Source: Rhodocyclaceae bacterium
GTDB taxonomy: Bacteria; Pseudomonadota; Gammaproteobacteria; Burkholderiales; Rhodocyclaceae
NCBI GenBank assembly: GCA_013821865.1
Contig: PNJM01000001.1
Location: 1 to 29,220 of the forward strand
Reading direction: 5' to 3'
Length of the DNA: 29,220 nt
Shown here piece by piece: positions 7,116-28,365 of the stretch (position 1 is its first letter; the number at the start of each line of letters is the position of its first letter). Under the pieces are notes generated by a model, which worked only from the letters and a program-made list of their open reading frames with translations, had not been told where the DNA came from and did no database searches. Made by a program: the position numbers and the translations under genes.

Positions 7116-7203
7116 TTCGGGTTGCGGGTTGCGAGTTTCGAGTTAGGGCGGTACAGCCGTGGACTTCAACTCGAAACCCGAAACCCGAAACCCGAAACCC
7201 GAA
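7116..7203. repeat. Heptamer repeat array with large inverted repeat covering the ccoI start
   Basis: Four tandem copies of CGAAACC lie at 7172-7199. The whole block 7168-7196 is the inverted copy, with 3 mismatches in 29, of 7116-7144. The 23-nt loop (7145-7167) contains the ccoI Shine-Dalgarno-like AGGGCGG and its GTG start. The array encodes the N-terminal NSKPETRNPKPETRNPKPEA-type residues of CcoI. Such heptamer tracts occur dispersed in many proteobacterial genomes; here one abuts and enters a gene. Confidence 0.85.
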
Positions 7204-9642
7204 GCTTGTTATCACTGCGGCCTGCCGATTCCGCAGGGCGCGCATTTCGCCGTCACCATCGCCGCCGCGCCGCACGCGATGTGCTGCGCCGGCTGCCAGG
7301 CGGTGGCCCAGGCGATCGTCGACAACGGCCTGGCGGACTACTACGACCACCGCGATGCCCTGCCGGAGAGTCCGCGCGAGGCCATGCCCGCGGTGCTGCA
7401 CGACCTCGGCCTGTACGACCATCCCGACATCCAGAAGAGCTTCGTGCAGCCTCTTTCCGGGCATGAGCGCGAAGCCTCGCTCATCCTCGAAGGCATCACC
7501 TGCGCCGCCTGCGTCTGGCTGAACGAGCAGCATCTCACGCGCCAGGCCGGCGTCACGGCGGTCGACATCAACTACGCCACGCGCCGGGCGCGCGTGCGCT
7601 GGGATGAACGGCAGATAAAACTTTCCGGCATCCTTGCCGCCGTTGCCGCGATCGGCTATCACGCCTACCCCTACGATGCCGCCCGCTCCGAGGAACTGGC
7701 GCGCAAGGAGCGCCGCGCCGCGTTGTGGCGCCTGTTCGTCGCCGGCTTCGGCATGATGCAGGTGATGATGTACGCGGTGCCGGTGTACCTGGCGGAAGAG
7801 GGCACGATGAGCGCGGACATCGAAGCGCTCATGCGCTGGGCCAGCCTGGTGCTGACGCTGCCCGTCGTGCTCTATTCCGCGGCGCCGTTCTTCCGCAATG
7901 CCTGGCGCGACCTCCGCCTCATGCGCGTCGGCATGGATGTGCCGGTGGCCCTGGGTATCGGCGCCGCCTTCGCCGCCAGCCTCTGGGCCACGCTTGCCGG
8001 GACGGGCGAAGTCTATTTCGATTCGGTGACGATGTTCGTCTTCCTGCTCCTGGGCGGACGCTACCTGGAGATGCTGGCGCGGCAGAAGGCGGTGCGCTCC
8101 ATCGAGCGCGTCGGCCGGGCACTGCCGGCCTTTGCCGAACGGCTCAATGCCTTTCCTTCGCTGGAGGCCGAACGCGTCGCGGTATCCGCGCTCGCCGCCG
8201 GCGATATCGTGCTTGTCGCGCCGGGCCAGACCATTCCCGCCGACGGCGTGGTCATGCAGGGGAAGAGCGAAGTGGACGAATCGCTGCTGACCGGAGAGAG
8301 CCGGTCCATTGCCAAGGAGGAGGGCGGCGAGGTGACCGGCGGCACGGTGAACATGCGCAGCCCGCTGGTGCTGCGGGTGGAGAAGGTCGGCGAGGCGACG
8401 CGGCTCGCCTCGATCGTCCGGCTGATGGAGCGCGCCATCACCGAGAAGCCGCGCGTGGTGGTACTGGCTGACCGCGTTGCCGCCTGGTTCGTCGCCGCGC
8501 TGCTGGTGCTGGCGGTGTCCACCGGCGTGATTTGGAGCCAGATCGATCCGCAGCGCGCGCTGTGGGTATTCGTTTCGGTGCTGGTCGTGAGCTGCCCCTG
8601 CGCCTTGTCCCTCGCCACGCCGGCGGCCCTGGCGGTGGCGACGGGCGCGCTGTCCCGTCTCGGACTGCTCGTCTCGCGCGGCCATGCCATCGAGGCGCTG
8701 GCGCGGGCCGACCATTTCGTTTTCGACAAGACCGGCACGCTGACCTGGGGCCGCTTGCGCATGCTGGAAGTGCTGGCCCCGGGCGGGATGCCGGCGGCCG
8801 AAGCACAGCGGCTTGCTGCGGCGCTGGAGCAGGGCTCCGAGCATGCCGTCGGGATCGGCTTGCGGCAGGCTTTCGGCACGGGCGGCACGCTGCCGGAGGC
8901 GCAGGGATTGCAGGCATATACCGGACAGGGCGTCGAGGGCGTCATCGAAGGGCGGCGGCTGCGCATCGGCCGCATCGAGTTCGCCGGGGCATTGCACGGC
9001 AAGCCTTTGCCGCCGGACGCGGCCGCGCTGGCGGCGGCGGGCGATACCTGCGTCGCGCTGGCGGATGCGGATGGCTGGATTGCGCTGTTCCGCCTCGGCG
9101 ACGAGCTGCGGCCGCAGGCGCGCGAACTGGTCGCCGGCCTGCGGCAACTCGGCTGCAAGGTGACGCTGCTCTCCGGCGACTCGCCTGCGGCGGTGGCGCG
9201 CGTGGCGCAGGGACTGCAAATCGACGATGCCCACGGCGGCATGGCGCCGCAGGACAAGCACGGATTCATTGCCCGCCTGCAGCGCGAAGGCGCGCTGGTA
9301 GCGATGACGGGTGACGGTGTGAATGATGCGCCGGTGCTGGCCCAGGCCCAGGTGTCCATAGCCATGGGCGGCGGCACCGAGCTGGCGCGCAACCAGGCCG
9401 ACATCGTCCTGCTCGGAGAGGGTCTCGGGCAGATCGAGCAGGCGGTCAGGCTGGCGCGGCGCACGCTCTCGATCATCCGGCAGAACCTGGGCTGGGCCTT
9501 CGCCTACAATTTCGTGGCGATCCCGCTCGCCATGTTCGGCCTGATCACGCCGTGGATGGCCGGCGTCGGCATGTCGATGAGCTCGCTGCTGGTCGTGGCC
9601 AACGCGCTGCGGCTGCAGCCGGGCGGGGAGGGGGCACGCTGA
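7159..9642 (+). CDS. ccoI: CcoI copper-transporting P1B-type ATPase for cbb3 oxidase assembly
   Basis: An 827-residue heavy-metal P-type ATPase. An N-terminal Cys-rich region (CYHCGLP, then CCAGCQAV) typical of CcoI/FixI is followed by a metal-binding domain with GITCAAC (Cys 115 and 118). It has the transmembrane metal motif SCPC (Cys 479 and 481), the actuator TGES, the phosphorylation site DKTGT (Asp523) and the hinge GDGVND (about 718-723). The family moves Cu(I) to the periplasm for insertion into CcoN. The only start that keeps the conserved CYHCG part is GTG 7159, since an in-frame stop lies just upstream at 7144-7146. As a result the first 17 or so residues are made by a heptamer DNA repeat and look non-native. 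It overlaps ccoS by one base. Confidence 0.93.
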   Translation: MDFNSKPETRNPKPEACYHCGLPIPQGAHFAVTIAAAPHAMCCAGCQAVAQAIVDNGLADYYDHRDALPESPREAMPAVLHDLGLYDHPDIQKSFVQPLSGHEREASLILEGITCAACVWLNEQHLTRQAGVTAVDINYATRRARVRWDERQIKLSGILAAVAAIGYHAYPYDAARSEELARKERRAALWRLFVAGFGMMQVMMYAVPVYLAEEGTMSADIEALMRWASLVLTLPVVLYSAAPFFRNAWRDLRLMRVGMDVPVALGIGAAFAASLWATLAGTGEVYFDSVTMFVFLLLGGRYLEMLARQKAVRSIERVGRALPAFAERLNAFPSLEAERVAVSALAAGDIVLVAPGQTIPADGVVMQGKSEVDESLLTGESRSIAKEEGGEVTGGTVNMRSPLVLRVEKVGEATRLASIVRLMERAITEKPRVVVLADRVAAWFVAALLVLAVSTGVIWSQIDPQRALWVFVSVLVVSCPCALSLATPAALAVATGALSRLGLLVSRGHAIEALARADHFVFDKTGTLTWGRLRMLEVLAPGGMPAAEAQRLAAALEQGSEHAVGIGLRQAFGTGGTLPEAQGLQAYTGQGVEGVIEGRRLRIGRIEFAGALHGKPLPPDAAALAAAGDTCVALADADGWIALFRLGDELRPQARELVAGLRQLGCKVTLLSGDSPAAVARVAQGLQIDDAHGGMAPQDKHGFIARLQREGALVAMTGDGVNDAPVLAQAQVSIAMGGGTELARNQADIVLLGEGLGQIEQAVRLARRTLSIIRQNLGWAFAYNFVAIPLAMFGLITPWMAGVGMSMSSLLVVANALRLQPGGEGAR

Positions 9643-9836
9643 TGGAGATTCTCTACATCCTCATTCCGCTTTCGGTGGTGCTGGTATTCCTCATCGGAGT
9701 CGTGTTCTGGTGGTCCGTGCGCAGCGGCCAGTTCGACGATCTGGAAGGGCCGGCCTATCGCGTTCTCATGGATGACGACAAGCCGAAGAGTGACTCCACC
9801 GGCGAGGCGGGGCGGAAGAAGGACGAAAAAACCTGA
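9642..9836 (+). CDS. ccoS: CcoS, cbb3-type oxidase assembly protein
   Basis: A 64-residue protein. One N-terminal transmembrane helix (ILYILIPLSVVLVFLIGVVFWW) is followed by the family signature SGQFDDLEGPAYRVLMDDD, then a charged tail. CcoS is needed for cofactor (haem and copper) insertion into the CcoN subunit. The ATG overlaps the ccoI TGA as TGATG, so translation is coupled. The same frame is open further upstream inside ccoI, but homology begins at this Met. Confidence 0.95.
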   Translation: MEILYILIPLSVVLVFLIGVVFWWSVRSGQFDDLEGPAYRVLMDDDKPKSDSTGEAGRKKDEKT

Positions 9837-9872
9837 GAATCACTGCGGCCGGCTCTCATATTTGAGGTGGCT

Positions 9873-9914
9873 TTGATCCATGTCAATTTTTTCCGGCCCG
9901 CAATTTCCCATACT
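9873..9914 (+). promoter_or_regulatory. FNR box and -10 element of a class II FNR-activated promoter (candidate sRNA)
   Basis: TTGAT-CCAT-GTCAA (9873-9886) matches the FNR/Anr consensus TTGAT-N4-ATCAA at 9 of 10 positions. Its centre is 9879.5, and CATACT, a reasonable -10, lies at 9909-9914. That puts the box at exactly -41.5 for a start at 9921, the standard class II spacing. It lies 37 bp after ccoS and reads away from it. Confidence 0.7.
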
Positions 9915-9920
9915 TGCGTC

Positions 9921-10051
9921 AAGGTTTTGGTCTTGGAGGCGGGCCGGGCTGTATGCAGTTCTCTGCGACAGGGTTCCGTTCCGGCTTGCAAGTCTGAAGT
10001 CTTGTCTCTCTGTTGGGGTTGGGGTGCGCACCAGCGCACCCCCTTTTTTTT
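9921..10051 (+). ncRNA. Candidate FNR-activated small RNA, about 131 nt
   Basis: This is the stretch between the FNR-type promoter and a strong terminator. It has no convincing ORF: the open frames through it begin upstream of the predicted start or lack a ribosome-binding site. Predicted structure, from the sequence by eye, has nested stems GCCGG/CCGGC (9943-9947 with 9981-9985), CTGT/ACAG (9949-9952 with 9968-9971) and GCAG/CTGC (9955-9958 with 9963-9966, loop TTCT). A pyrimidine-rich single-stranded linker (about 9986-10016) and the terminator hairpin follow. This is the layout of an Hfq-type trans-acting sRNA such as FnrS of enterobacteria or AniS of Neisseria, to which no sequence kinship is claimed. 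The linker part TTGTCTCTCT (10002-10011) is complementary to the 10 bases just before the ATG at 17666. Inference, not proven. Confidence 0.6.
10021..10051 (+). terminator. Strong rho-independent terminator
   Basis: A perfect 9-bp stem GGGGTGCGC (10021-10029) / GCGCACCCC (10034-10042) with loop ACCA, followed by C and eight T (10044-10051). It ends either the candidate sRNA or a long ccoS 3' end and isolates the Rrf2 gene. Confidence 0.93.
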
Positions 10052-10119
10052 GTGCGCCTAATAAGTGTATATTGAGATATTTATATCGCCATATGCTCCC
10101 GCCAGGGAACTCTTCGACG

Positions 10120-10659
10120 ATGATTCTGTCCCGCACCAGCCAATACGCCATTCAGTCCCTCATTTTCGTCGCGACCCAGCCGCGCGGCGTTCCCGTGTTG
10201 ATCCGCACGGTCGCCGAGCGCCTCGGCGTGCCGCCGCCATATCTTGCGAAAATTATGCAAAGCCTCGGCCGCGCAAAACTTATCTATTCCCTTCGCGGCC
10301 GGCAAGGCGGCGTGTGTCTGCGTGAGGGCGGCGAAAAGACCGATTTGATGCAGATTCTCACGCTGATCGAAGGTCCGGGCTTGACCGAGAACTGCGTGCT
10401 CGGGTTGAAGATATGCGGCGACGAGACGGCCTGCCCCATGCACGCCCAGTGGAAGCCGATCAAGACGAGAATCGTGAAACTCCTGAATCAGCAGACCCTC
10501 GGCAAGCTTGCCGCGGCAGTTCAGAGCGGGAAATATCGACTCACGGAACTTCCGTTTGCCGCACTGGAAGCCAAGGGAGTCGCGCAAGGCAAAGGACCAG
10601 CGATTCTCGTCCAGGCGCAGGGAATCCGGGCCCGCCGCGCGGGCAGCGCCCGTAACTAA
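10120..10659 (+). CDS. Rrf2-family transcriptional regulator, three-Cys Fe-S type
   Basis: A 179-residue Rrf2 regulator. The N-terminus MILSRTSQYAIQSLIFVA is the family start, with a winged helix (VAERLGVPPPYLAKIMQSLGRAKLIYSLRGRQGG). Three cysteines C92-x6-C99-x5-C105 lie in TENCVLGLKICGDETACPMH, so a [2Fe-2S] or [4Fe-4S] cluster is likely. The start at 10120 has AGGGA upstream and matches the family; an upstream in-frame ATG (10093) has no ribosome-binding site. An AT-rich segment (10061-10090) lies before it and may hold its promoter. It sits between the candidate sRNA and fnr, so a role in redox, NO or Fe-S status around the cbb3 genes is plausible. It is not the suf regulator, which is a separate Rrf2 gene at 27898. 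Its exact subgroup is not recognised. Confidence 0.88.
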   Translation: MILSRTSQYAIQSLIFVATQPRGVPVLIRTVAERLGVPPPYLAKIMQSLGRAKLIYSLRGRQGGVCLREGGEKTDLMQILTLIEGPGLTENCVLGLKICGDETACPMHAQWKPIKTRIVKLLNQQTLGKLAAAVQSGKYRLTELPFAALEAKGVAQGKGPAILVQAQGIRARRAGSARN

Positions 10660-10703: not shown

Positions 10704-11465
10704 ATGAAAGACATGCCTGGTTCGAAGGTAACGCCACTCCGTTCGGCGCCCGATCGACCCTGCGAGCCGATTGCCTGTGCTCAGTGCGGGGTCTACCGGT
10801 TGTGCCTTCCGCTCGGCCTGCATCAGGCCGATATGACGCTGCTGGAGAGCATCGTCAGGCGCAAGGAGATCTATAAGCGCGGGCAACGCCTCTTCAGGCC
10901 GGGAGACCGCTTCGACTTCATTTATGCGATCCGCAGCGGCTCGGTCAAGACTTGTGTTTGCACTCCGGACGGGCGCGTGCAAATCACCGGCTTCCATATC
11001 GCGGGCGAACTCCTGGGATTGAGCGCGCTCGATTCGGGGCGGTACAGTTGCGAAGCGCGGGCGCTCGAAACAACGTCTGTTTGCAAGGTGGAGGCCGAGC
11101 GGCTCGGGGAACTGGCGCAAAGCATCCCCTCGATCCAGTACCAGATGCTGAAAATAATGAGCGGACATATCCGCCAGGACGAGGAACTCATGCTGCTGCT
11201 CGGGCGAAGGAACGCCGAGGAACGCCTGGCCGAATACCTGATCGGTCTGTCCAGGCGCTTCGCCGCCCGCAATTATTCCCCGACCCAGTTTCACTTGAGC
11301 ATGTCCCGCGGCGACATCGGCAACTATCTCGGCATTGCCGAGGAGACGGTCTGTCGCATTCTGACCCGATTCCAGAACGCAGGCCTCATCGCCACAAACC
11401 GGCGCCATGTTCGGCTGATCGATCTTCGGGAACTGGAAGCGGTAGCGCGAACAAACGCTGCCTGA
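10704..11465 (+). CDS. fnr: FNR/Anr-type oxygen-sensing transcription factor
   Basis: A 253-residue CRP/FNR-family protein with all four cluster cysteines of FNR: C25-x2-C28-x5-C34 and C127 (TSVCKVE). It has the cyclic-nucleotide-like roll (YAIRSGSVKT, ITGFHIAGELLGLSAL), the dimer helix and a helix-turn-helix GDIGNYLGIAEETVCRILTRFQ. It should bind TTGAT-N4-ATCAA as a [4Fe-4S] dimer without oxygen. The recognition helix reads E214-T-V-C217-R218 where E. coli FNR has E209-T-I-S212-R213, so the DNA-contacting Ser is Cys here. The start at 10704 follows GGGGAG at good spacing; an alternative in-frame start at 10686 lacks one. FNR boxes nearby (9873 and 12204) suggest it controls the adjacent cco genes. 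Confidence 0.93.
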   Translation: MKDMPGSKVTPLRSAPDRPCEPIACAQCGVYRLCLPLGLHQADMTLLESIVRRKEIYKRGQRLFRPGDRFDFIYAIRSGSVKTCVCTPDGRVQITGFHIAGELLGLSALDSGRYSCEARALETTSVCKVEAERLGELAQSIPSIQYQMLKIMSGHIRQDEELMLLLGRRNAEERLAEYLIGLSRRFAARNYSPTQFHLSMSRGDIGNYLGIAEETVCRILTRFQNAGLIATNRRHVRLIDLRELEAVARTNAA

Positions 11466-11741: not shown

Positions 11742-12212
11742 ATGAAACACTTGATGAAACGGCTTCTGGCCCTGACAATCGCTTCCGCCGCATTGGCTGT
11801 CCCCAGTGCATTCGCCGCCGACGGTCCTTGGATGGTTCGCGTGCGTGCGGTCAATCTCGACATGACGAACAAGTCCGACGCCATTCCGGCGCTGGCGGTA
11901 CCGTCGGACGCCATCCGCGCCTCGGACAAGACCATTCCGGAAGTTGATATAAGCTACTTCATCACGAAGAACATCGCCGCCGAACTGATCCTCACCGTGC
12001 CGCAGAAGCATGGCGTGGAGGTGACGCAAAGCGCGATCGGTGCCTTCAAGGCCGGTACGTTCAGGCACCTGCCGCCGACCCTGACGCTGCAATACCACTT
12101 CCTGCCCGACGGCCAGTTCCGCCCCTATGTTGGCGCCGGCGTCAACTACACGCGCTTTTCCAGCGTCAATCTAGCGATATCAAACTTTGCGACCACGATA
12201 TATTTGATATAA
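11742..12212 (+). pseudogene. ompW: OmpW-family outer membrane protein, C-terminally truncated
   Basis: A 156-residue frame starting MKHLMKRLLALTIASAALAVPSAFA, a clear signal peptide cleaved after AFA, with Shine-Dalgarno AGGGGAG 7 nt upstream. The mature start DGPWMVRVRAVNL and the segments ISYFITKNIAAELIL, LPPTLTLQYHFLPDG and FRPYVGAGVNYTRF are typical of OmpW, an 8-stranded beta-barrel linked with anaerobic or stress responses. Family members continue some 50 more residues to a final strand ending in Phe. Here homology stops near VNYTRFSSVNL (about 12170), and an unrelated tail ISNFATTIYLI ends at a TAA inside the FNR box of ccoN. Lacking the last strands, it is unlikely to form a barrel. 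A recombination joint near 12170 is the simplest explanation. Confidence 0.8.
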
Positions 12213-12246
12213 ATCAATCATCGGCGGATTGTTCCTGGAGTATCCT
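12204..12246 (+). promoter_or_regulatory. FNR-dependent promoter of ccoNOQP
   Basis: TTGAT-ATAA-ATCAA (12204-12217) is a perfect FNR/Anr box. TATCCT at 12241-12246 serves as the -10, giving a start near 12252 with the box at about -41.5. The leader to ccoN is about 127 nt and contains repeat copy B. The box overlaps the stop codon of the ompW remnant. Confidence 0.88.
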
Positions 12247-12378: not shown

Positions 12379-13806
12379 ATGCAAACAGAAGCGACCTACA
12401 ACTACAAGGTTGTGCGCCAGTTCGCCATCATGACGGTGGTGTGGGGCATCGTGGGCATGTTGGTCGGCGTCGTCATCGCCGCCCAACTTGTCTGGCCCGA
12501 ACTGAACCTGACCTCCTGGCTGTCCTACGGCCGATTGCGGCCGCTGCACACCAACGCCGTCATCTTCGCCTTCGGCGGCTCGGCGCTGTTCGCCACGAGC
12601 TATTACGTGGTGCAGCGCACCAGCCACGTGCGGCTGTTCTCCGACGGCCTGGCCGCCTTCACCTTCTGGGGCTGGCAGGCCGTCATCGTCGCGGCGGCCG
12701 TGACCCTGCCGCTGGGCATGACCAGCGGCAAGGAGTACGCCGAGCTGGAGTGGCCGATCGACATCCTCATCACCCTGGTGTGGGTCTCCTATGCCGTGGT
12801 CTTCTTCGGCACCATCGCCACGCGAAAGGCCAGCCACATCTACGTCGCCAACTGGTTCTACGGCGGCTTCATCCTCGCCGTGGCCCTGCTGCACCTGGTC
12901 AACAGCTGCGAGATTCCGGTCTCGCTCTTCAAGAGCTACTCCTGCTACGCCGGCGTGCAGGATGCCATGATCCAGTGGTGGTACGGCCACAACGCGGTGG
13001 GCTTCTTCCTCACCGCCGGCTTCCTCGGCATGATGTACTACTTCGTGCCCAAGCAGGCCGGGCGCCCGGTGTACTCCTATCGCCTCTCGGTGGTGCACTT
13101 CTGGGCCCTCATCTTCACCTACATGTGGGCCGGCCCGCACCACCTGCACTACACGGCGCTGCCCGACTGGGCCCAGTCGATCGGCATGATGTTCTCGCTG
13201 ATCCTGCTGGCGCCGTCCTGGGGTGGCATGATCAACGGCATCATGACCCTGTCCGGCGCCTGGCACAAACTGCGCGACGACCCGATCCTCAAGTTCCTCA
13301 TCACCAGCCTGTCCTTCTACGGCATGAGCACCTTCGAAGGCCCGATGATGTCGATCAAGACGGTGAACGCCCTCTCGCACTACACCGACTGGACCGTCGG
13401 CCACGTGCATTCGGGGGCCCTGGGCTGGGTGGCGATGATTTCCATCGGCTCCATCTACTACCTGATCCCGCGCCTGTTCGGCCGGAAGGAGATGTACTCG
13501 GTCCGCCTCATCAACGTGCATTTCTGGGTGTCCACCATCGGCGTCGTGCTCTACATCGCCGCCATGTGGATCGCCGGGGTGATGCAGGGCCTGATGTGGC
13601 GCGCCACCAACGCCGACGGCACGCTCACCTACGCCTTCGTCGAGAGCGTCAAGGCCACCTATCCGTTCTGGAGCATCCGCCTCCTCGGCGGCCTCCTCTT
13701 CCTCTCCGGCATGCTCATCATGGCCTGGAACACCTGGAAGACGGTCGCCGGCCAGAAGGCTTACGACGCGCCGGTGCTGGCCCCTGCGGCCGGTCAACAC
13801 GCCTGA
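12379..13806 (+). CDS. ccoN: CcoN, catalytic subunit of cbb3-type cytochrome c oxidase
   Basis: A 475-residue, 12-helix haem-copper oxidase subunit of the C family. The ligands are all visible. Low-spin haem b: His57 (RPLHTN) and His344. Copper B: His204 (WWYGHNAVG) and His254-His255 (GPHHLHY). High-spin haem b3: His342 (VGHVHSG). The cross-linked Tyr of helix VII is Tyr314 ([11 protein letters not shown]), keeping the spacing to His204 known for cbb3 enzymes. It reduces oxygen to water at very low oxygen and pumps protons. The start ATG has GGGG 9 nt upstream; the longer in-frame N-terminus comes from the repeat-containing leader and is rejected. Driven by the FNR promoter at 12204. Confidence 0.97.
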
Positions 13807-26113: not shown

Positions 26114-26722
26114 ATGAACTACCCGGCTTTCTTCGACCAGGTGTGCAGCATCACCGTGCGCGACCCGCTCGCCGAATTCCTCGGCGCGGCCGAGGGCGGC
26201 ATCTTCGAATACCGCTACCTCGACGCGGTCAAGGCGGCGGGGCATTCCTGCCCGACCGTGGCGTCCGCCTGGCTCATGACGGCGAAGGCGCTGGATGCAC
26301 TCTACCCCGGCGCCACGCCCGAGCGCGGCGCGATCCGTGCCGAGTTCGGCGAAGATCGCAGCAGCGGCGTCACCGGCGTCATCGCCAACATCGTCAGCCT
26401 CATCACCGGCGCCACGCAGGACACCGGCTTCAAGGGCCTCGGCGGGCGCTTCGACCGGCGCAACCTGCTCTTCTTCAATGCCAAGGTGAGTGCGGAGATT
26501 CGTTTCAGGCGCGTCGATACCGGTGCTGCCGTGGAAGTCGCGGCGAACCTGGGCCGCGTGCCGGGCGACCTGCGCATGCGCGAACTGATGGGGATGTGCA
26601 TCGGCGGCGTGGCCAGCGAGGAGCAGAAGCGCGAATTCGGCCGCCTGTGGCAGGAGCGAGTGCGCGCCCTCCTGCTCGATCACGCCGACGACCCGGAGGT
26701 GATCGTCGTCAGGCCGGTTTGA
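26114..26722 (+). CDS. FmdE-like domain protein of unknown role
   Basis: A 202-residue protein. The segment YLDAVKAAGHSCPTVASAWLMTAKALDALYP resembles the GHxC motif of the FmdE family (formylmethanofuran dehydrogenase subunit E), with His44 and Cys46 as likely metal ligands. The later part (GVTGVIANIVSLITGATQDTGFKGLGGRFDRRNLLFF) is a typical conserved stretch of the bacterial members. No methanogenesis genes are near, and the bacterial function is unknown, possibly metal or molybdopterin related. Its 3' end overlaps the convergent gene by 14 bp. An 80-bp gap after the methyltransferase holds no clear promoter. Confidence 0.75.
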   Translation: MNYPAFFDQVCSITVRDPLAEFLGAAEGGIFEYRYLDAVKAAGHSCPTVASAWLMTAKALDALYPGATPERGAIRAEFGEDRSSGVTGVIANIVSLITGATQDTGFKGLGGRFDRRNLLFFNAKVSAEIRFRRVDTGAAVEVAANLGRVPGDLRMRELMGMCIGGVASEEQKREFGRLWQERVRALLLDHADDPEVIVVRPV

Positions 26723-27897: not shown

Positions 27898-28361
27898 ATG
27901 CTGCGCATCAGCAAGCTGGCCGACTACGGCACGATGGTGACCGCCTACATGGCGCGGCGGCCGGACCAGTTGTTCAACGCCGGCGAGATCGCGCAGGCGC
28001 TGCATCTCGGCCAGCCGACGGTGAGCAAGATCCTCAAGATGCTCGGCCGCGACACGCTGGTGCTGTCGGTGCGCGGCGCCGCCGGCGGCTACACGCTGGC
28101 CCGCTCGCCGGAACTGATCACCGTGGCCGAGATCATCGACGCCATGGAGGAGCAGCCTTTCGGCCTGACCGAATGCAGCGCCGTGGAAGGCGCGTGCACG
28201 CAGGAAGATACCTGCATCATCCGCGGCAACTGGCGCCGCATCAATGGCGCCGTGCGGCGCGCGCTGGAGGAGGTGTCGCTGGCCGACATGATCCGGCCGC
28301 CTGCGCGGACTTCCGGCCAGGCACCGGCGCGGAGCGTGCAACTGCGCCAGGGGAGGCAGTC

Positions 28362-28365
<4 letters not shown>
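27898..28365 (+). CDS. SUF system Fe-S cluster regulator (Rrf2 family, SufR-like)
   Basis: A 155-residue Rrf2 regulator. [19 protein letters not shown] is the start typical of the proteobacterial SUF-associated subfamily, followed by a winged helix ([36 protein letters not shown]). Three cysteines C93-x6-C100-x5-C106 lie in [16 protein letters not shown] and are presumed Fe-S ligands. It should repress or tune the suf genes by sensing cluster status. It overlaps sufB by 4 bp (ATGA) and lies after the palindromic operator at 27723. Confidence 0.93.

Follow-up and report, generated by a model that had tools for sequence, protein, structure and literature searches.

The window, i.e., the whole stretch of DNA analysed here, comprises 29,220 nucleotides from the genome of a Rhodocyclaceae bacterium (G000) and contains a cbb3 (cco) locus. 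Within this locus a predicted small RNA (sRNA), preceded by an FNR box and followed by an intrinsic terminator, lies between ccoS and a gene for an Rrf2-family regulator. The features are as follows:

7159 to 9642, plus strand: ccoI, copper-transporting P-type ATPase (PF00122, PF12156, PF00403)
9642 to 9836, plus strand: ccoS (FixS family), upstream neighbour of the element (PF03597)
9873 to 9886, plus strand: FNR box TTGATCCATGTCAA of the putative sRNA promoter, read directly, centre at 9879.5
9909 to 9914, plus strand: -10 element CATACT, read directly, with the predicted +1 at 9921
9921 to 10051, plus strand: predicted sRNA of about 131 nt (fold z = -3.7)
9921 to 10003, plus strand: predicted 5' hairpin, a long interrupted stem exceeding the length of those of its siblings (fold; the shorter hairpins of siblings show compensatory changes)
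10000 to 10024, plus strand: conserved linker TCTTGTCTCTCTGTTGGGGTTGGGG, proposed to be the part that pairs and complementary to gene starts
10021 to 10042, plus strand: intrinsic terminator stem-loop of 9 pairs, 8 of them G-C (direct reading and terminator scan)
10044 to 10051, plus strand: T8 tail of the terminator, read directly
10120 to 10659, plus strand: Rrf2-family regulator (PF02082), an arrangement seen in 3 of 88 loci
10704 to 11465, plus strand: FNR gene, candidate activator of the sRNA (PF13545, PF00027; scan from 10686)
12204 to 12217, plus strand: second FNR box, upstream of ccoN (motif scan)
12379 to 13806, plus strand: ccoN (PF00115)

The best matches of the FNR protein of the window among solved structures were FNR-type regulators, with C25, C28, C34 and a later cysteine all aligned to cysteines; its recognition helix reads EETVCR, compared with VETISR in solved FNR, a Cys replacing a Ser. 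An OmpW-like ORF in 11742–12217 matches only positions 2–116 of the 195 of PF03922, so that the gene, judged by this partial match, looks truncated, and the FNR box at 12204–12217 overlaps its end. A second Rrf2-family gene is present at 27898–28365.

Because CATACT occupies positions 9909–9914, transcription would start near 9921, which centres the FNR box at -41.5. This class II spacing between box and -10 element, which the preliminary description had pointed out, could be confirmed by direct reading and proved to be conserved across the Rhodocyclaceae. Perfect boxes of the form TTGAY-N4-RTCAA were found twice in the window, compared with 0.02 expected from shuffles. A sigma-70 scan of positions 9400–10600 detected no -35/-10 promoter; a missing -35/-10 pair is no argument against a class II FNR promoter. 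For the promoter count in homologous loci, in the choice of which the FNR box played no part, 108 loci (28 from relatives and 80 from named genomes) were reduced to 102 by removing five duplicates, as well as L144, whose upstream sequence is short. A perfect box was present within 200 nt upstream of the sRNA in 100 of the 102 loci (the exceptions being L126 and L152), compared with 0/102 for a reversed control. Over these 100 loci, the best match to TATAAT lay at the class II distance from the box, or in part one base nearer. The spacing is that expected of an FNR-activated sRNA.

The 131-nt predicted RNA folds with an energy of -58.0 kcal/mol, compared with -45.1 kcal/mol for shuffles (z = -3.7), only 1/200 of which did as well. 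The homologous predicted RNAs from 100 loci measure 64–147 nt (median 90), and the 5' hairpin of the window member exceeds that of 14 siblings by about 50 nt, the whole predicted RNA of these siblings spanning just 75–79 nt. The 5' segments of the homologues also fold better than their shuffles, with a mean z of -2.5 and values below -1 in 76/100. Compensatory changes were observed in 5/14 pairs of the 5' hairpin among 13 distinct siblings (alignment A2, which omits L001 and L013 with their longer hairpins), and in 7/7 pairs among 18 short members of the 100 (alignment A3), where 83% of cells pair. In the terminator, 4/8 modelled pairs had changed on both sides in the 46 sequences of the model alignment (A1, drawn from 83 distinct stretches). 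The covariation score was reached by 0/500 shuffles in each of the three alignments, a result that relatedness alone can produce, and a terminator-like pattern is in itself no rarity in the region (1 found; shuffle mean, 1.4). What is predicted is a short, structured RNA with an intrinsic terminator. The earlier claims of about 100 nt of structured RNA and of a 9-bp terminator with eight T (stem at 10021–10042) were borne out, and over the Rhodocyclaceae conservation extends to the box with its -10 spacing, to the hairpin and the terminator, both with compensatory changes, and to the place.

The possibility that the element is instead a gene for a small protein, on one strand or the other, can be almost entirely discounted. 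ORFs do exist at 9867–10061 (plus strand) and 9755–10039 (minus strand), but the RNAs predicted at homologous loci go down to 64 nt in length, 64/100 of them contain no complete plus-strand ORF, and the longest such ORF has 26 codons' worth of product (26 aa); moreover, conservation tracks the stems, the linker and the terminator.

When 201 bases of the window were compared with related genomes by BLAST, two conserved blocks were evident, one corresponding to the promoter and the other to the linker plus terminator, and a match was obtained in 27/60 genomes, the window's own included. A scan of named genomes for linker plus terminator yielded at least 118 stretches, 80 of which were taken as loci (L073–L152); these include members of Azoarcus, Thauera, Aromatoleum, Zoogloea, Dechloromonas, Azonexus, Accumulibacter, Sulfuritalea, Uliginosibacterium and Tepidiphilus. 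With a covariance model of the 3' part, i.e., linker and terminator, the sRNA was detected in 155/199 genomes and 54/68 genera of the Rhodocyclaceae (GTDB family; E <= 1e-9), with a single match per genome except in G505, which has two on separate contigs. Across 399 genomes of the order, strong matches (>60 bits) were obtained in 15, of which 13 belong to the same family, while both of the others sit in cbb3 loci of the same type. Intermediate matches outside the family (<=36.6 bits; L274–L278 were read) were rejected; they resemble unrelated terminators, and tblastn detected no cco gene. Judged by its sequence, the element belongs to a conserved family of sRNAs.

The genomic position is conserved as well. 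A ccoS gene lies no more than 450 nt upstream of the sRNA in 96/100 loci, and the gene downstream is ccoN in 81/88, with the rrf2-fnr pair of the window type in three and neither in four. The placement within the cbb3 locus of a rhodocyclal-type organism, as first proposed from the window alone, therefore extends across the Rhodocyclaceae. Among the 44 genomes of the family in which the model found no match, 20 were tested for a ccoN-like gene (E <= 1e-60), which was present in 15.

This arrangement raises the question of whether the element might instead attenuate ccoN (or, in the window, rrf2-fnr) as part of an FNR-driven leader, read-through of the terminator supplying extra mRNA. The presence of ccoN directly downstream and on the same strand in 81/88 loci is consistent with a leader, and some read-through of a terminator is always possible. 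However, in 84/90 loci another perfect FNR box was found after the terminator of the sRNA and ahead of ccoN (reversed control, 0/90), and since ccoN thus has its own box, the element is probably not its leader. In addition, four of the 15 genomes that have a ccoN-like gene but no model match (L332, L334, L336 and L337) lack the sRNA and retain ccoS-like sequence upstream of ccoN with its one FNR box, and the linker, which a leader would not need, is kept letter for letter and matches gene starts elsewhere in the genome. We therefore regard a leader as very improbable. The sRNA and the oxidase, as far as their sequences tell, carry tandem, separate FNR boxes. Two boxes between terminator and ccoN were seen in 8/90 loci and three in 1/90; some of the siblings among L045 and L003–L012 have two.

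The last four G of the linker TCTTGTCTCTCTGTTGGGGTTGGGG also enter the terminator stem. Its invariance in alignment A1 is partly a matter of construction, because the named loci were chosen by an exact linker plus terminator pattern; the box, the place and the 5' hairpin were unselected in the same set. In minimum-energy folds, only 4/100 RNAs had at least 10 of the 13 bases at the centre of the linker unpaired (mean, 5.9), the pairing occurring mostly through a weak hairpin (UCUC-UGUU-GGGG) or with the 5' part. On these models, the weak 4-bp hairpin with its UGUU loop may serve to start pairing.

In genomes of the window's genus, the conserved linker (UCUCUGUUGGGGUUGGGG) is complementary to the ribosome-binding sites of genes. 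The 12 secondary BLAST matches that were examined turned out to represent the complement of the linker at gene starts, and were rejected as paralogues of the sRNA because all 12 loci read antisense to those starts. The most consistent site was that of a DsrC-like gene (PF04358), where CCCCAACCCCAACAGAGAGA or a near variant is found just before the ATG. It was present in 14/16 genomes of the genus, including both copies in the window's own genome. Base changes in the sites of G000, G003, G006, G008 and G011 keep the pairing through G-U, whereas a change in the C run of the G002 site does not. As a background for pairing, 207 gene starts were taken by a simple ORF rule from a single genome, G001, and scored with RNAduplex. 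All 14 of the DsrC-like sites scored in the genus (13 genomes; the gene of G005, at a contig end, was left out of the scores) paired better than every one of the 207 background starts, as did the sites of G016 and G023, which belong to other genera. The two remaining genomes of the genus were G009, in which no close DsrC-like orthologue was found, and G013, which has the sRNA and an orthologue with no site (-14.3 kcal/mol; 164/207 background starts better). The two DsrC-like genes of the window's genome (L241; contig C42, 7735–8061 and 12356–12682) are 4.6 kb apart, each with a pairing site.

A second candidate target was sodC, encoding a Cu/Zn superoxide dismutase (PF00080). In G000, G001 and G011 its site outscored every one of the 207 background starts (RNAduplex), and the sites of G006, G007 and G014 were each exceeded by 6/207; sites are also present in G010 and G015, both outside the scored set. 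For G016, 21/207 background starts were better, and for G019, in which no sRNA was found, 96/207; the sodC gene of G002 had no evident pairing site. Other candidates were restricted to particular lineages. The start of a gene for a small, secreted, Cys-rich protein in G008 paired at -49.7 kcal/mol (0/207 better), a lipoprotein gene was a candidate in G003, G007 and G012 (3/207 better in G012, the one scored), and a site at 4-hydroxyphenylpyruvate dioxygenase (PF14696) was present in 3/5 genomes of another genus, g8 (3/207 better for the two scored). In the window itself, the start of an FmdE-family gene (26114–26722) paired with the linker at -28.5 kcal/mol and did not exceed the best background starts; from its sequence it is a possible further target.

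A scan of 60 genomes for CCCCAACAGAG-N3-20-ATG produced 25 rows, from 17 of the genomes, compared with 3 control matches, although one row (G018) was the sRNA locus in reverse and two sites were doubly listed. When 199 genomes of the family were scanned with a narrower pattern, 45 rows were obtained from 40 genomes, compared with 8 control matches; as 13 of the 45 fall on the sRNA locus itself, the comparison becomes 32 versus 8. Few recurrent targets emerged from the exact pattern outside the window's genus, and it had no match in the window's own genome, where the target sites pair via G-U (DsrC-like) or with a gap (sodC). Complementarity of the linker to ribosome-binding sites was found at genes elsewhere in these genomes, with the dsrC-like gene of G013 and the sodC genes of G002, G016 and G019 as the misses. 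The expectation, voiced in the preliminary description, that the RNA represses aerobic genes fits sodC in several genomes and the dioxygenase in one genus; it does not cover the best-conserved target, the DsrC-like gene of sulfur relay.

An FNR-activated sRNA could also use its linker chiefly to act on a protein or a second RNA (as a sponge), or could activate its targets, with the matches at gene starts arising as side effects. The linker is conserved more widely (155/199 genomes of the family) than any target found, and its G-rich GGGGUUGGGG might bind in other ways. Nevertheless, complementarity of 15–20 nt at the ribosome-binding sites of unrelated genes, the best of which beat all 207 background starts, argues against such a mode of action, which we consider unlikely.

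Taken together, these observations make it quite probable that the element encodes a trans-acting sRNA which FNR activates and which keeps its target mRNAs from being translated. The DNA itself shows the box and its spacing, the hairpin, the linker, the terminator, the place and the complementarity, and the conserved box, spacing, structure and place lend support to the earlier suggestion of an analogous FNR-activated sRNA. According to the mechanism we propose, falling oxygen would lead FNR, possibly the product of the gene 0.65 kb downstream, to bind the box at -41.5, and a short RNA would be transcribed as far as the intrinsic terminator; here we infer both that the RNA is expressed and that its expression depends on FNR. 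The 5' hairpin, being variable in sequence, probably protects the sRNA, while the linker would pair with about 15–20 nt covering the ribosome-binding site of the DsrC-like mRNA, the sodC mRNA and a few lineage-specific mRNAs. Such pairing would block translation (we assume repression rather than activation) and mRNA decay would follow, probably with Hfq, to which the sRNA would presumably bind. Hfq is encoded in the window's genome (PF17209, E = 6.7e-30) and was found in 19/21 genomes searched. The conserved pairing sequence and the likely targets go beyond what the preliminary description had proposed.

Members of the Rhodocyclaceae, which include Azoarcus, Thauera, Aromatoleum, Dechloromonas, Zoogloea and Accumulibacter, make their living by switching between oxygen and nitrate, and the family is important for wastewater treatment and for the breakdown of aromatics. 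Among the open-licence PMC matches listed, we found no described oxygen-responsive sRNA of this family and no report of the present RNA, and no Rfam family describing it was found. In a broader and frankly tentative view, about which we are more doubtful than confident, the riboregulator embedded in the cbb3 locus could be a core part of oxygen adaptation in the Rhodocyclaceae, made by the same locus as the high-affinity oxidase, with a twin FNR promoter and a seed fixed throughout the family. It might silence the superoxide defence, a sulfur carrier of the DsrC type and lineage-specific, oxygen-using enzymes such as 4-hydroxyphenylpyruvate dioxygenase, and a gene would become a new target by evolving a sequence complementary to the seed. 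A link to the dsrC-like gene would tie oxygen sensing to sulfur transfer, and the sRNA offers a constant place, a constant seed and named candidate targets.

When the whole window and the element were compared with Rfam (4227 families), nothing scored above its gathering score at the element, and hence no model for FnrS did so. FnrS of enterobacteria was reportedly described by Durand and Storz in 2010. It is portrayed as a short, trans-acting, FNR-activated sRNA that represses genes unneeded without oxygen (PMC8139620, PMC10993149), with sodB, a superoxide dismutase gene, named as a target (PMC8139620). Similarly, sodC is a predicted target of the Rhodocyclaceae sRNA in several genomes; the latter differs from FnrS in its place in the cbb3 locus, in its linker and in having the DsrC-like gene as its best target. 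The best reading of the sequences is that the present sRNA would work like FnrS, with no sign of homology between them. AniS of Neisseria meningitidis, described as a betaproteobacterial sRNA induced in anoxia and linked to Hfq and FNR (PMC4423775), resembles it by description; the strong order-wide matches outside the Rhodocyclaceae were confined to two genomes, both with cbb3 loci of the present type. The best of the weak Rfam matches was to SorY of Rhodobacter (RF02651), which shares CUCxCUGUUGG-like letters before the terminator; however, it scored 31.1 bits where the gathering score is 111, and there is hardly any match in the 5' stem, so that homology is not claimed.

S17 of Bordetella pertussis (RF02278) is described as a betaproteobacterial sRNA with a fully conserved stretch that pairs at the ribosome-binding sites of its targets, and its reported occurrence includes Ca. 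Desulfobacillus denitrificans and Aromatoleum (PMC11722255). Identity with the present RNA was rejected: there was no match to RF02278 at the element (cut-off, 50 bits), and S17 is a separate gene in siblings. In G002, for example, the RF02278 match lies at C1:514166-514231 and the cbb3-locus sRNA at C1:2291231-2291279. The conserved letters of S17 (TCTCCTCCACCCTCCTCCTTTGGTGTGG) are also unlike those of the linker, and no perfect FNR box was found in the 150 nt upstream of seven S17 copies. Matches to S17 above the cut-off were seen in the siblings G001, G002 and G011 (L346, L348 and L349), while none was found in the incomplete G000. Because no Rfam model scored above its cut-off at the element, and because S17 is a different gene, the cbb3-locus sRNA would represent a new family of an already known kind.
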